A DNA stretch of 64,000 nucleotides from Candidatus Eisenbacteria bacterium (GCA_005893305.1 VBOZ01000009.1:55303-119302); one strand, 5' to 3'. Positions 54,951-63,026 are shown, counted from the stretch's first letter. Translations and numbers: made by a program. Notes: a model not told the origin generated them from the letters alone.

Positions 54951-56066
54951 CTACAGACGATCGAAATTGACCAGGCAGCGGTTCCCGAATGTGAACGAAT
55001 TGACGGCTAGCCCCGGCGCGGTCGCGAAGAGTCGGAGGTCGTGCTCGTTCTCGTCCTCGCCCCGCACCACGTAGTACATGCGGCCTTCCTTAACGTCGAT
55101 GTAGGTGCGCCCACGGGCGTCCTCGACCATGTCCACTCCGCGTTGCGCCGCGGGCAAGGGCTTCCCGTCGCGCGTCACGTACACGCGGGCGGCTGATACG
55201 CTCCGCAGATTCATCACGGCGTAGACCTCACGACCGTGGTAGCGAATCCCAATGTAGTCCTCCGGGGACGGGGTGGCGCGGGCGTGTTCGAAAGCATCGG
55301 GCTCGTTCTTCCAGAGCCCATGGGCGTAGAACCCGCGAGGCACCGTGCGCGGCAGGCTGGCGTAAAGCACCGTCTTTCCCGGTTGGAACCCCTCCCGGTT
55401 CGCAATTGCCCCACCCCATTGCGATCCTCGCGCCGTGCCGATGTACGTTTCCTCCGACGTAGTCCCACAGCGGCTCGGGTCGAAGTCGTTCGTGTCGGGC
55501 GGAATCCGCCACGGCGACGGGAAGACCGCCTTCGGGTTCGTTTTCAGGAGCTCGCTCCGAATGAGCCGCTCCAGGTCTCCGTATCCACCCTCGCCCGCGT
55601 GTTGAAGGACGATGATTCCGTTCGCACCGATAAGGAACTTGTTCGGCCACGAGTTGCTGTCGTACGCGCGCCAGGTCGAGAAGTCGCTATCCACGATCAC
55701 GGGCCAGGGGATGCGCTGCCGCTTTACGCCCGTGGCCACGTTCTCCGACCTGTAAGCGAAATCAAACTCCGGCGCGTGATCGCCGATGATCTCGAACCCA
55801 TAGGGCTTGTATCGCTCGTAGATCCGCTTCAGCGTGGGGAGCGTGCGAATGCAGTTGATGCAGGTGTACTCCCAGAAATCGACGAGCACGACCCTCCCCT
55901 TCAGCTCCCGCTTGAGCGAGAGGGGCTTGCTGTTGATCCAAATCCGCTGGCCCGTGAAGTCCGGGGCGGGCGTGCCGGGTGTCAACTCGGCGCACGAGGG
56001 CGTCGGCGAGATCGCGGCAATGAGCGCGACCGCGAGAAGAAGAGCCAAGGCTCGGAGCGGGGACAC
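54951..56066 (-). CDS. Exported thioredoxin-fold protein (TlpA/DipZ-C-like) with Cys-x-x-Cys, 371 aa
   Basis: A signal peptide (ending 'TPSCA|EL') is followed by a thioredoxin fold: 'APDFTGQRIWINSKPLSLKR', 'VVLVDFWEYTCINCIRTLPT' with the redox pair in C-I-N-C, 'GFEIIGDHAPEFDF', and the cis-Pro region 'WPNKFLIGANGIIVLQHAG'. The C-terminal half (about 170 residues) is the DipZ-type carbohydrate-binding-like domain ('DYIGIRYHGREVYAVMNLRS'). It would transfer electrons to periplasmic disulfides; the membrane DsbD part of DipZ is absent. GTG 56066 follows GGAGGT; the frame remains open to 56222 without a signal peptide. Confidence 0.85.
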   Translation of the reverse strand: MSPLRALALLLAVALIAAISPTPSCAELTPGTPAPDFTGQRIWINSKPLSLKRELKGRVVLVDFWEYTCINCIRTLPTLKRIYERYKPYGFEIIGDHAPEFDFAYRSENVATGVKRQRIPWPVIVDSDFSTWRAYDSNSWPNKFLIGANGIIVLQHAGEGGYGDLERLIRSELLKTNPKAVFPSPWRIPPDTNDFDPSRCGTTSEETYIGTARGSQWGGAIANREGFQPGKTVLYASLPRTVPRGFYAHGLWKNEPDAFEHARATPSPEDYIGIRYHGREVYAVMNLRSVSAARVYVTRDGKPLPAAQRGVDMVEDARGRTYIDVKEGRMYYVVRGEDENEHDLRLFATAPGLAVNSFTFGNRCLVNFDRL

Positions 56067-56305
56067 GGCACCTCCGCGTTCAAGGGTGAAAGGACTGCGA
56101 TCTTCTATTCTGGAGTATACGCTGTGGCGGAACGCCGGCGCTAAAAGCGCTGAGGGCGAGTGCGCGTCTAACTCCAAGTGGATACTCACCGCCACGGGAA
56201 TCCACGCCTTTTGGTGCCACACGATCCGGGTACCGGTGTAGTTCCTAGTGGAGGAGTTCCATCTGTCGTGAAGAAAGGGTTACGACCACGGTGGAGGAAT
56301 GGGTC

Positions 56306-57629: not shown

Positions 57630-58037
57630 CTATTGGTTAACTGCGGCGCACGCCTGCAGCGAGAAATCGCTTGCGAGCCGGACCGAGACCGAGTGGATCT
57701 CGTCCAGGTCGTCGTGCAGCTTGCTGGTGACGGTCGCTTCCCCGTCCGCGTTGGCGGTGTAGTGACCGATAACGTCATCGGCCGAGTAAGGCTCGAGCTC
57801 ACAGGTGCCGTTGTCGTAATAGAGCGACAGGTAGTTCGTACCTGGGTGAAGCCCCTTGGCCACCACTGTGATCAAGGTGCCGCCCTTGGGGAGTGCGGTG
57901 AGTTCCACGCGGCCGCTGACTCCCGATCCGCCGATAGGCAGAAGGGTTGCATTTACGTGATGCGCGGTAGACGCCATGGCGACACCGGCTAAGAGAACCG
58001 ATGCGAGAGCTAGGGGAAAGACGCGCTGCTTGAGCAT
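57630..58037 (-). CDS. Small exported CHRD-like beta-sandwich protein, 135 aa
   Basis: A signal peptide (ending 'AMA|ST') precedes one domain: 'HHVNATLLPIGGSGVSGRVE', 'GTLITVVAKGLHPGTNYLSL', 'YYDNGTCELEPYSADDVIGH' and 'LHDDLDEIHSVSVRLASDFS'. The layout resembles CHRD or Cu-Zn SOD-like sandwiches ('GLHPGTNYLS'), with two Cys residues (in 'NGTCELE' and 'QACAA') that may form a disulfide. Function unknown. ATG 58037 has GAGGAG seven bases upstream. Confidence 0.75.
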   Translation of the reverse strand: MLKQRVFPLALASVLLAGVAMASTAHHVNATLLPIGGSGVSGRVELTALPKGGTLITVVAKGLHPGTNYLSLYYDNGTCELEPYSADDVIGHYTANADGEATVTSKLHDDLDEIHSVSVRLASDFSLQACAAVNQ

Positions 58038-58399
58038 GATGAACTCCTCTTCAGTTCCCCCGGGTGTTTGGGTCGATGTGCTCCCCGACCCACGTAGCGC
58101 CCAACCGTCACCGGGGGAAATCCCGGTCCGGCGCAAATGCTGGGGAGTCTTCGCCTTCGCTTAAGCATTGACACATCGAGGATTGGCCACGCGCGGGTCC
58201 CCGACCTCTAGGGAACCCGCCCAGTGGGCGGCGGTTCCGAGGTCCGGAGAAGACTCGCACGGCGCGAAGTCTCGAGTTCGCACTCTCGAAAGAAGCCTAC
58301 TTGATATCTGAGGCGCTTAGGTAGCCCTCTTCCCGCCGGGAAGCCGGACCTTTACCCATCCGGGGCACGAGATCTTCACAGCGCCGTTCTCGGCGGTCG
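58038..58399. other. Intergenic region between minus-strand genes
   Basis: About 360 bases downstream of the DHFR-like gene and upstream of the small sandwich protein. The promoter for the latter lies here; I see no consensus on the minus strand. A 61-codon minus-strand frame at 58317-58502 overlaps the DHFR-like gene and is not credible. Confidence 0.35.
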
Positions 58400-59179: not shown

Positions 59180-59231
59180 CGCTCATGAGCGTTCGAGAGC
59201 GGCGGTGCCACCGACCCGAGGCCCTAGCGAT

Positions 59232-59513
59232 TTACGGGCATCCGCTACCAGTGCATCTGCCGTTGACGATCTTACAGTCGTCCGTTGCGCCCTCCGACCG
59301 GCAGAAGTAAAGAGCTTGAAGAACCTCGCACGTGCGGTGATTGCAGCCATGCGACGCAGCCACGGCCGTACCGACGGCGAGATCGGACAGCGCCGAGACA
59401 TAAGGCGATTTCGCGGGCGCCCTCGATGTCTTGGGTGACGCAGTCCCGAGCACGATCAGAGATATGGTGAGAATGGCGGCGAGTCCGATTGCTAGCTTGA
59501 GGTGTTTTGTCAT
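59232..59513 (-). CDS. Exported six-cysteine peptide, copy 1, 93 aa
   Basis: It has an N-terminal membrane/signal segment (MTKHLKLAIGLAAILTISLI) and a linker with 'SPYVSALSDLAVGTAVAASH'. The Cys-rich tail has spacing C-x4-C-x8-C-x8-C-x6-C-x4-C ('GCNHRTCEVLQALYFC', 'CKIVNGRCTGSGCP'). The same spacing, and the linker motif SPY(I/V)SALS-(N/D), recur in a second gene 3.2 kb away. Three disulfides are possible outside the cytoplasm. I do not recognise the family. AAGGAG precedes ATG 59513. It is downstream of, and on the same strand as, the cytochrome fusion gene. Confidence 0.75.
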   Translation of the reverse strand: MTKHLKLAIGLAAILTISLIVLGTASPKTSRAPAKSPYVSALSDLAVGTAVAASHGCNHRTCEVLQALYFCRSEGATDDCKIVNGRCTGSGCP

Positions 59514-59573
59514 CGTGGACTTCTCCTTCCTCGACCATCCGAACACGCCGAGCGAGAGTCGAGTCCCACCCGG

Positions 59574-59592
59574 GGCTGGCGGCACCGCCAGC
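59574..59592. repeat. Short palindrome (GGCGGCACCGCC core)
   Basis: GCTGGCGGCACCGCCAGC, an 8-bp dyad around CA, lies between the cytochrome fusion stop and the copy-1 peptide start. Its core recurs at 62630 and 63007. Confidence 0.6.
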
Positions 59593-59647
59593 GGACATTA
59601 AGGATAGCATCTCTCGGGCCCTCGACCCAGGTCCGGCTGATCCCCGC

Positions 59648-62479
59648 TCACCTGGTGCTCGCAGGCGACAGAGGGGCGGACCCCTCCTCGAAGTAGTCAT
59701 GGCGGACCTTCGGGAGCTTTTCCGCGTATACGAAGTGGTCCGAATGATCCGGGTTGTGGCATTCGAGGCAGACCTTCTCGGGAACGACCCGGTGAATATT
59801 GGATCGTGATGGCGCCGCTACGTGCCGGCCTCCCGGGCCGTGGCAGATCTCACATTGGACGTTGCCAAGCGGCTCCTCCGGCGCCCCGATCCTGTACCCA
59901 TGAGGCGTCCCGTACCCGACGACGTGGCATGAAATACATCGCGGCTGATAGTGCCGGTGCACGTCCAGCAGCGTCTTGTAGGCGGCCGCGTGTCTCGTCG
60001 TTTTCCATTGGGCGTATTCGGCCTGATGACAGTTCTCGCATTGGGCGGCACCCACATAGCGACCTTCGAGGCGTGCGGGATCGTCCTGGAAGAGCGGCTT
60101 TACGCTCGCCTGCGCCGCGTCGAGCTTCCCCACTTCGTCGTAGAACCGGTTCAGCCGGTCCCGAACCACCGGATCGTCCTTCACGTCCTTGTACAGCATG
60201 TGCCTCTCCACGGCCGCGGAAGTGATCCTCCCCTCTCGATCAAGACCCAGCCTCGCGCTGCTGAACCCGTAATTTCTCAGAGGTGTGTAGAGAACCAGCG
60301 TTCCACCGAGAAATCCGGGAGGATCTTCCTTGCTCAGCTCCCAACCGCCGGCCCCCTTGTGGAAGCTGGGGGCATCGCTGTCGGTCGAGATGATGACGTC
60401 CAGGCCCGGACATGCCGCGACCAAACGACGGATCGTGGCTGGGGTGAGGCGTCCCATGGCGAAGACGAGGTCCGCCTGCCGGCGAAGTGCCGGCAGCGAT
60501 CTCCTCAAAGGCTCGAGCGGATCTTCGATCGTCAGCGAAGACGTGTGCGCCTCGAAGAGAGGATCCGCGCTCTTCCCCCGCAGCGGGTCGAAAAGACCGA
60601 TCACGGCGACGCGGAGCCCGTCCGCGTGGAGAATGATCCACGCGGGAGCGATCGGCTTTCCGCCCTCTGCAATGTTTGCGGAGAGATACGGCGTTCGGAG
60701 CCCTTGGGTCATTTCTCGGAAGTGGTCGAGGCCAAAGGAGAGCTCGGTGGTTCCCACCGCGGCGGCGCCGTAGCGCATGAGGTCCATGAGCCGGAGATAG
60801 AGGCTCTGCTCTCTCCGCGAGAAGAAATCCGGCTTGTCCTGTTTCTCCGGCCGGATGAACGCGCTTCCCGCATCGAGCAGGAGGAGCTCAGGGTCTCGTT
60901 CGCGCATTTGGCGGAGCACCGTGGCCCTGCGCGCGACGCCTCCGGACTGATTCACCTTACAGCCGCAGTTCTCGAGGTAGCCGAAGGTCTCGCCGGTGTA
61001 GGCCAAGTTCAACTCCCGGACAGCCCTGCCGCGAGAGGGCTCGGGCTTGGCCTGCGTGGGCTTGAGGGCGAAGTAGGCTTCCACCGGCGCGAGCGTGGTG
61101 CCTCGAACGAACAAGGCTCGGAAGTTCTGCCACAGACCGGGGCGGGCCTTGGGCAAGGAGGACCAGAGCGAAGGGGCCGTCCGGCCGTGGAACATGCGAG
61201 CGAGAACTGAGTCGAAGCCGCCCCTGCCCCCCGGCGTGGACCGCAGTGTGCGGTCGAGATGGAGCAGGACAAAAGGCGCCAGGGTCTCGCGACCCAAACG
61301 GCTGCTTTTCGTGGTCGCGTACAGATTCTCGAGATTGCGCTCGATGCCCTCGGCGCTGAAGGCAGAGACGTAGCCAGCGGCGAGCGACCGGTTCAACTCG
61401 TCCTCGCTGACGAGCCCCGCGGCGGTGACCGCGCGCCAGGCGTAGAGGTTCGTTATCCCGTCGACCAGCCAGTATTCCCCCGGGGCCCGAACCTCGGTGC
61501 GGTACGGGGCGTACCGGATGTAGGCGTCGATCAGCCGGGCCGCGAAATCGTGCAGCCGGTTGCCTGTGAGCGGGGAAAAGGTTTGACCTTGTCCCGTCGC
61601 GCTTCCCTCGCCGGCGATCTCGTCACCGGACGGGGCGGGGGGTACGATGATGGTCACGTACGAGGGCCCGAGGTCCCGGTCAAAAAGACCGTGAACGTAT
61701 CGCGCGACGCGCGTGAGTTGCGTCACCGCCTGTTCCTCCTGAGACGGCGGAATGCCGGAGTGGAAAGCCAGGGTGAATCGAGTCTCTCCGAGACGGAATG
61801 TCCGCTCGTGGAAAGGTCCGAGCCCCACGGTGGCCGAGATCATCTGCTCGGCGGGGGAAGAACCACGAAGGTCCGCCAGTCGGTTACCTCGTCCGGCTTC
61901 CCAGGTCGTGACCGCCTTCCAACCGCTCGGAAGGGAGAACCGAACCGCGATGTGACGTAGCATCTCGGCGCCGGGGTCCGGCAAGAGGAAGAGATCCCGC
62001 CCCGACACCAACGCAAAGTTGTCTCCTACGTAGCCGAAGCAGCGGCCCGTGAAGCCCATGTGACTGTCCCCTTCCCGCCTGCCCGGGGTGACCCGGTAAC
62101 GCACGGTGAGTGACCGGGGCAGCGGTCCCCGAAGGGTGAAGCGCGGAACGTCGACACGCAGGCCTTCGAGGAGCACCGTGTCGACCCGAGCGTCCACTGC
62201 GATGCGCGCGCCCCGAGGGCCGACGGCTTGGAAGTCCGAGACCCGGAGAATCTCGTCGGAGGCGTACCCTTTGAGAACGAGGGAATCGCGGGAGACGCCG
62301 TTCAGCGCGAAGGTGACTGCAAGCTGATCTGGATTTCCCGGGGCAGGGGAAACGTTGTAGGTGAGACTCGTGGATGGGGCGCAGGAGCAAGTGAGCACGG
62401 ACGCTACAGCGGCAGAAACAGCAAGCCGGTAGGCCGCTTGATGCGGGAAAAGGAGTCTCACCCTAGTGCGATTTGGCAC
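59648..62479 (-). CDS. Lipoprotein fusion: degenerate M1/M61-like peptidase, degenerate metallophosphatase, tetraheme cytochrome c; 943 aa
   Basis: The signal ends near 'SVLTCSC', a likely lipobox. Residues about 130-470 resemble M1/M61 aminopeptidases ('PGEYWLVDGITNLYAWRAVT') but the zinc motif HExxH is replaced ('LHDFAARL'). Residues about 488-770 follow the UshA-type metallophosphatase pattern ('LNLAYTGETFGYLENCGCKV'), yet the metal ligands are missing: the GD and GNHE positions read 'LLLDAGSAF' and 'VGTTELSFG'. The C-terminal 138 residues carry four heme motifs CxxCH at about 814, 848, 876 and 904 (CENCH, CISCH, CEICH, CLECH), like cytochrome c554. Start GTG 62479 is uncertain. Function unknown; an outer-membrane electron-transfer role is inferred. 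Confidence 0.85.
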   Translation of the reverse strand: MPNRTRVRLLFPHQAAYRLAVSAAVASVLTCSCAPSTSLTYNVSPAPGNPDQLAVTFALNGVSRDSLVLKGYASDEILRVSDFQAVGPRGARIAVDARVDTVLLEGLRVDVPRFTLRGPLPRSLTVRYRVTPGRREGDSHMGFTGRCFGYVGDNFALVSGRDLFLLPDPGAEMLRHIAVRFSLPSGWKAVTTWEAGRGNRLADLRGSSPAEQMISATVGLGPFHERTFRLGETRFTLAFHSGIPPSQEEQAVTQLTRVARYVHGLFDRDLGPSYVTIIVPPAPSGDEIAGEGSATGQGQTFSPLTGNRLHDFAARLIDAYIRYAPYRTEVRAPGEYWLVDGITNLYAWRAVTAAGLVSEDELNRSLAAGYVSAFSAEGIERNLENLYATTKSSRLGRETLAPFVLLHLDRTLRSTPGGRGGFDSVLARMFHGRTAPSLWSSLPKARPGLWQNFRALFVRGTTLAPVEAYFALKPTQAKPEPSRGRAVRELNLAYTGETFGYLENCGCKVNQSGGVARRATVLRQMRERDPELLLLDAGSAFIRPEKQDKPDFFSRREQSLYLRLMDLMRYGAAAVGTTELSFGLDHFREMTQGLRTPYLSANIAEGGKPIAPAWIILHADGLRVAVIGLFDPLRGKSADPLFEAHTSSLTIEDPLEPLRRSLPALRRQADLVFAMGRLTPATIRRLVAACPGLDVIISTDSDAPSFHKGAGGWELSKEDPPGFLGGTLVLYTPLRNYGFSSARLGLDREGRITSAAVERHMLYKDVKDDPVVRDRLNRFYDEVGKLDAAQASVKPLFQDDPARLEGRYVGAAQCENCHQAEYAQWKTTRHAAAYKTLLDVHRHYQPRCISCHVVGYGTPHGYRIGAPEEPLGNVQCEICHGPGGRHVAAPSRSNIHRVVPEKVCLECHNPDHSDHFVYAEKLPKVRHDYFEEGSAPLSPASTR

Positions 62480-62629
62480 AGACCCACGGGCGGCTTGTTC
62501 GCGTACCGGAACCCGTTCACGCGGAAGAGCACCGCGAAAGCATACGCCTGGGGCGGGCGTCTCGTCATCAAGGTGCGAAAACTCTTATCCACTCTTGTAC
62601 CGGACGAAGTAGGATTAAGGTCCTCATCT

Positions 62630-62649
62630 GGCCGGTGGTGCCGCCGGCC
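62630..62649. repeat. Short palindrome (GGCGGCACCGCC-type core)
   Basis: GGCCGGTGGTGCCGCCGGCC: a 9-bp dyad with one G-U, in the region upstream of copy-2 peptide gene. Read on the minus strand it is a one-base variant of the palindrome at 63007. Confidence 0.6.
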
Positions 62650-62653
62650 TTGA

Positions 62654-62677
62654 CCGAGCGGGCCGGCCACCGCTCGG
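62654..62677 (+). promoter_or_regulatory. Hairpin in the 5' region of the copy-2 peptide gene
   Basis: CCGAGCGG (62654-62661) and CCGCTCGG (62670-62677) pair across an 8-base loop, 33 bases upstream of the start codon. It may lie in the 5' UTR; a regulatory role is only inferred. Confidence 0.4.
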
Positions 62678-62710
62678 CAATAGGCTCATCGGCCGAGAAA
62701 GGGGTTCTCC

Positions 62711-62995
62711 ATGACGATTCGTATCAACTTGGTTCTCGGTCTAGCGGCGATAATCTTCGTCCTTGCCCTCGTGGCTGGCACCGCGGGGCACCAGGCGATG
62801 AACGCGTCAACGCATTCTCCTTATATCTCCGCGCTCTCCAACGCTGCCGTCGCGACGGCGGAGGCCTCAAATTCCCACAGGTGCCAGAATCGCAGCTGCG
62901 GCAACCTCCAAGGAATCGTGACCTGCACGGAGGAAGCGCTCGGGACCAACTGCGCCGTCTCGAACGGCGTCTGCACCCTGACTGCTTGCCGATGA
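62711..62995 (+). CDS. Exported six-cysteine peptide, copy 2, 94 aa
   Basis: A signal/membrane segment ('LVLGLAAIIFVLALVAG') is followed by 'HSPYISALSNAAVATAEASN' and a tail with six Cys at exactly the spacing of copy 1 ('CQNRSCGNLQGIVTC', 'CAVSNGVCTLTACR'). Identity is highest in the SPYISALS linker and around the Cys residues (NR-x-C, LQ, NG-x-CT). The gene is convergent in layout with copy 1 only through the cytochrome gene between them. AAGGGG precedes ATG 62711. A palindrome follows 12 bases after the stop. Confidence 0.78.
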   Translation: MTIRINLVLGLAAIIFVLALVAGTAGHQAMNASTHSPYISALSNAAVATAEASNSHRCQNRSCGNLQGIVTCTEEALGTNCAVSNGVCTLTACR

Positions 62996-63006
62996 GATAG
63001 TCCCGG

Positions 63007-63026
63007 GGCCGGCGGCACCGCCGGCC
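63007..63026. repeat. Short palindrome (GGCGGCACCGCC core), copy-2 3' side
   Basis: GGCCGGCGGCACCGCCGGCC is a perfect 20-base dyad 12 bases beyond the copy-2 stop, followed by TTCGCG. It could stop transcription or be a REP-like element; cores of the same sequence are at 59577 and (reverse) 62633. Confidence 0.65.

Follow-up and report, generated by a model that had tools for sequence, protein, structure and literature searches.

In a genome of Candidatus Eisenbacteria, two short open reading frames encoding cysteine-rich peptides lie on opposite strands, one on each side of a gene for a tetraheme cytochrome fusion protein. This arrangement raises the question of whether the peptides and the fusion protein work together, or whether they are neighbors for some other reason. 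The first-pass annotation of the window, which is the whole stretch of 64,000 nucleotides analyzed here, had described two paralogous peptides on opposite strands with the same cysteine spacing, and both ORFs are indeed found in these positions:

59232..59513, minus strand: P0001, six-cysteine peptide, predicted to be exported, 93 aa ORF (alignment, dN/dS)
62711..62995, plus strand: P0002, paralogue of P0001, divergent from the fusion gene, 94 aa ORF (alignment, dN/dS)

P0001 has a hydrophobic N-terminus, an SPYVSALS linker, and the residues AVA immediately ahead of the cysteine domain. The two peptides are 43% identical across their full length, and P0002 used as a query retrieves P0001 at E = 1.7e-17. 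They have in common the spacing C-x4-C-x8-C-x8-C-x6-C-x4-C, an identity that is far beyond chance. When compared with their orthologues, both peptides show dN/dS values of about 0.1-0.4, with most of the changes held by third codon positions; they are therefore real, constrained genes under purifying selection, in agreement with the selection initially proposed. The structure predicted for the peptide from 3 sequences, which is of low confidence (pLDDT 56), consists of an amphipathic helix and a small beta domain.

A profile of the peptide was searched against 47 genomes of the phylum and 338 of other phyla (385 in total) and additionally against 68 genomes of one further phylum, covering about 450 genomes, all of them species representatives. 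Twelve copies were found in 7 of the 47 phylum genomes, which belong to 5 genera and 2 families, so that homologues with the six-cysteine pattern are present in relatives of the organism. The 338 genomes outside the phylum contain no genuine peptide, the single match being spurious and interrupted by two stops, the profile found none in the 68 genomes of the further phylum, and a search for carriage on plasmids gave no match. Residues P37, Y38, L42, V47, A50, and A52, together with the six cysteines, are invariant or nearly so, and A-x-A precedes the cysteine domain in all 12 copies. The exact spacing of the cysteines is kept among close relatives only, most gaps in distant members being longer or shorter by one or a few residues. 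Comparison of 10 peptide homologues with Pfam, NCBIfam, and PHROGs gave best E-values of 0.015-0.036, reached by scattered single or double members and none above chance, and the PDB returned no match. NVEALA (PF14055) is a family of small exported peptides of Bacteroides with a hydrophobic start, a conserved alanine-rich motif, and a cysteine-containing tail, but the spacing of its motif differs from that of the six-cysteine peptides. This candidate was rejected, as its model matches neither any peptide described here nor the 385 genomes, while the Bacteroides control was positive. The suspicion that the cysteine spacing belongs to no known family is thus borne out in all these libraries, and a search of one literature library found no paper joining a cysteine-rich peptide with a multiheme cytochrome.

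The gene located between the two peptides encodes a protein composed of several recognizable parts:

59648..62479, minus strand: tetraheme fusion gene, 943 aa, GTG start, with a lipoprotein-type N-terminus, a degenerate M61-like domain, a UshA-like domain, and a cytochrome c554-like tetraheme
61025..62374, minus strand: M61-like N-terminal domain of the fusion, residues ~36-485 (Peptidase_M61_N, 5/6 members, best 3.7e-7)
60959..60967, minus strand: CGC motif at residues 505-507 of the fusion, opposite the selenocysteine motif CGU in alignments with UshA-like proteins
59756..60040, minus strand: tetraheme region of the fusion (CxxCH at residues 814, 848, 876, and 904)

Cytochrome c554 (PF13435) matches the C-terminus of the fusion at 1.2e-14, in a region with four CxxCH motifs, but accounts only for this last module of a far longer, lipoprotein-like protein; a lipobox-like N-terminus is found in most fusion homologues. 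The middle and C-terminal parts resemble the UshA-like proteins of NF041198 (UshA_like_PCGU), with a score of 252.3 bits (E 8e-75) that does not reach the curated cut-off of 275 bits. The likeness includes the C-terminal c-type haem region, where residues 762-919 of the fusion match positions 357-519 of the model, and the CGC motif, which is aligned with CGU or CGC of the standalone UshA-like proteins. Apart from its score below the cut-off, the fusion differs from these proteins in that it bears an additional, M61-like domain of about 450 aa at its N-terminus, carries cysteine at the motif in every copy (CGC in 9/9, never Sec), and has a six-cysteine peptide alongside. It is a variant of the UshA-like proteins not described before. 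Records of UshA-like selenoproteins carrying a CxU motif go back to at least 2008 (PMC2398784, PMC13188914), the family having been counted in ocean data (PMC2398784) and NF041198 catalogued with this motif in a selenoproteome review (PMC13188914). In our sample, relatives of the fusion, mainly in the standalone form, are present in 45 of the 47 phylum genomes at E <= 1e-20, and many of the standalone proteins of the phylum need TGA to be read as selenocysteine (CGU). The genome of the window also encodes a standalone UshA-like protein (L061, G000:C10:134816-136033), in which an in-frame TGA is required for the PCGU motif; therefore, selenocysteine is probably used in it.

The additional N-terminal domain is weakly similar to Peptidase M61 and the gluzincins. 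Peptidase_M61_N (PF17899) is matched by 5 of 6 members of the fusion family, with a best E-value of 3.7e-7, the window's own fusion being sub-threshold (17.1 vs 23 bits). HExxH with a downstream Glu is nevertheless absent from the M61-like part of every homologue that covers the region, so zinc catalysis by this domain appears unlikely, and an active M61 protease was rejected. The AlphaFold model of the fusion, built from 2 sequences, is of very low confidence (pLDDT 31).

These features bear on a first explanation of the locus, namely that the peptide is a secreted, disulfide-rich mini-protein (antimicrobial, signal, or toxin-like) acting outside the cell, which the fusion would mature or export, with the M61-like domain docking the leader and the CGC-haem part forming the disulfides. 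A hydrophobic N-terminus followed by a conserved linker and an AxA boundary, a short, cysteine-rich tail of about 35-40 residues, and the occurrence of paralogues within one genome, with tandem copies in genome G037, are all consistent with such a product. However, no conserved export ABC transporter, immunity gene, or modification enzyme adjoins the peptide, selection among orthologues is purifying and not diversifying, and the M61-like domain, which would be the candidate for cutting the leader, appears to be catalytically degenerate. We therefore consider this explanation unlikely.

The distribution of the two genes is more informative about their relationship. The full-length fusion, searched for with a profile of its N-terminal part and with the whole protein, is found in the same 7 genomes as the peptide and nowhere else among the 385. 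Co-occurrence in 7 of 47 genomes would arise by chance once in 6.3e7 if the genomes were independent, a figure that their kinship weakens. The distribution is patchy, as peptide and fusion alike are absent from two genomes of the genus to which the window belongs, including one that is 96% complete; the assembly that contains the window comprises 2.75 Mb and is 96% complete. Eleven of the 12 peptide copies adjoin a full-length relative of the fusion and, conversely, a six-cysteine peptide is located 7-240 nt away from each of the eight fusion copies with a readable neighborhood. The position of the peptide varies: it lies downstream of the fusion in G006, at both G028 copies, and in G037, where there are two in tandem; G004 and G007 have it upstream with the same orientation as the fusion; and the window and G003 carry a peptide on either side. 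No similar peptide was found within the flanks searched at 23 standalone UshA-like loci, most of which have Sec (CGU). Homologues of the peptides are thus tied to the tetraheme fusion and not scattered, and the functional unit envisaged by the first-pass annotation gains support from both the shared genomes and the adjacency. Because the peptide adjoins the fusion in each phylum genome that has the fusion, the two are probably working partners of some kind. Across 8 loci, the divergence of the fusion follows that of the peptide (r = 0.93), which fits a partnership, yet similar divergence is expected for any linked genes.

Some copies depart from the common arrangement. The second fusion of G028 (L057:6516-9671, G028:C220) is a divergent paralogue of 926 aa with no clear lipobox, and 93 nt downstream of it there is a divergent peptide with the spacing C-x3-C-x8-C-x8-C-x7-C-x4-C, which was missed by the first profile and located by its position. 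The second fusion of G007 (G007:C10) ends at a contig edge, and its readable side has no peptide. An orphan, P0001-like peptide (L024:4733-5014, G007:C95), with both of the palindromes described below, adjoins cysteine synthase-like and transporter-like genes with no fusion nearby. In the window itself, positions 54951-56222, about 3 kb from P0001, encode an exported thioredoxin-like protein (AhpC-TSA and a Thioredoxin_10 domain), a gene for which no counterpart was seen next to the fusions of relatives, and positions 57630-58136 contain a 168-aa ORF for a probable exported protein without a Pfam match.

Strict adjacency and co-inheritance are also what would be expected of a small subunit with a structural or assembly role in the cytochrome, such as a membrane anchor or stabilizer, in which the disulfides would be merely structural. 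The single hydrophobic helix of the peptide would be suited to this role, as would the amphipathic helix and small beta domain of the low-confidence prediction. Most fusions, on the other hand, have a lipobox-like anchor of their own, one fusion is flanked by two different paralogues in two genomes, and an orphan copy of the peptide exists, all of which makes a subunit of this kind rather improbable.

The peptide genes are accompanied by a set of palindromes and predicted hairpins:

62630..62649, plus strand: upstream palindrome (hairpin 1) of P0002, ~62 nt before the ATG
62654..62677, plus strand: hairpin 2 of the P0002 leader (folding)
63007..63026, plus strand: palindrome 11 nt past the stop of P0002, inverted relative to the upstream copy
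59575..59592, minus strand: upstream palindrome (hairpin 1) of P0001, 61 nt before the ATG
59548..59573, minus strand: hairpin 2 of the P0001 leader (folding)
59201..59217, minus strand: degenerate downstream palindrome of P0001
59149..59179, minus strand: predicted intrinsic-terminator-like hairpin after P0001

Sites of the GGCCGGYGGTGCCGCCGGCC type are present on both sides of both peptide genes in the window. With up to 2 mismatches allowed, GGCCGGYGGTGCCGCCGGCC has six matches in the window vs 0.6 expected, corresponding to four places, three of them by the peptide genes, and the site at 59201-59217 is a further, more degenerate one. The related palindromes reported near the peptides are therefore in excess of expectation, and they are conserved in relatives. 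Within the window's family, each peptide ORF, the orphan included, stands between the two members of an inverted pair: upstream, a GGCCGGYGGTGCCGCCGGCC-like palindrome 61-65 nt before the ATG, and downstream, a GGCCGGCGGCACCGCCGGCC-like one, whose start is some 11-30 nt past the stop. All nine leaders also fold into a second hairpin, in the same position but with differing sequences, and the changes observed in hairpin 1 (C-G to U-A and C-G/U-G) preserve the pairing. Since the folding z-scores of individual sequences are only modest (-0.4 to -2.2), it is position and compensation, and not energy, that point to a possible RNA element; the palindrome may alternatively act in the DNA, through inversion or binding. 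The leader model used for searching, in which only hairpin 1 is paired, has nine strong matches in the 47 genomes, each at a peptide gene; among these genomes, the leader is private to the peptide genes. A known RNA element was rejected, as Rfam 15 contains no match to the leader, its one sub-threshold match being elsewhere, in the fusion gene. A genome-wide, REP-type repeat was also rejected, given 70 matches vs 115 for a reversed control pattern and strong leader matches only at peptide genes. In the libraries searched, there is no description of either the peptide family or its leader. At L059:76-324 (G003:C57), a palindrome is joined in frame to what is left of a third fusion paralogue, truncated to its last ~75 codons with two CxxCH; the join may be a deletion junction or a contig-edge artefact.

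Paired inverted palindromes that enclose the ORF, even in the orphan copy, might also be taken to mean that the peptide gene moves or inverts as a cassette, with the neighborhood of the fusion as its landing place and no functional link between the two. The P2-type cassette upstream of the fusion has opposite orientations in the window and G003 vs G007, which inversion between the palindromes would fit. In G028, the fusion ORF contains a palindrome at its 3' end, 67 nt ahead of the ATG of one of the peptides, and another lies at the truncation junction in G003:C57. A free mover would, however, be expected beside other genes, yet 11 of the 12 copies adjoin the fusion, the leader is not dispersed across the genomes, and there is no linked recombinase. 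Moreover, the peptides of G037 and G028b have no palindromes and are still linked to the fusion. A cassette lacking any functional tie to its neighbor thus seems highly improbable.

The partnership of peptide and fusion is well supported by their co-occurrence, their adjacency across a patchy distribution, the conserved architecture, purifying selection, and the private leader. We infer export, the redox nature of CGC, and electron transfer by the haems from the families involved, and three disulfides in the peptide are putative. These features suggest a tentative model, which we rate a little short of evenly balanced, wherein the peptide would be the dedicated thiol/disulfide partner of a haem-coupled CGC-tetraheme lipoprotein, the two making up one exported thiol-redox unit. 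The peptide would be exported via its hydrophobic N-terminus and would be released or anchored around the invariant AxA ahead of the cysteine domain. The fusion would be a lipoprotein of the periplasm or the cell surface; its M61-like domain, catalytically degenerate, may hold the peptide, and the CGC pair, as the counterpart of the Cys-Gly-Sec redox center of UshA-like selenoproteins, would swap dithiol and disulfide with the cysteines of the peptide. The four haems would take electrons away or bring them in, and the peptide would be either a substrate or a shuttle of a haem-coupled thiol oxidoreductase. Against this model, the orphan peptide in G007:C95 adjoins a cysteine synthase gene instead of a fusion, and CGC is shared by standalone UshA-like proteins lacking a peptide; therefore, the motif itself needs none.

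To our knowledge, no substrate has been established for the UshA-like selenoproteins. If the tetraheme CGC protein used the linked six-cysteine peptide as an electron-exchanging substrate, with the peptide gene, together with a two-hairpin leader of its own, housed in a cassette enclosed by palindromes, this would be the first concrete clue to the role of these selenoproteins, a proposal that in its entirety we regard as doubtful. The strictly linked cysteine peptide provides a specific, testable candidate partner for the cysteine variant of this family that is fused to haems and to a peptidase-like domain.
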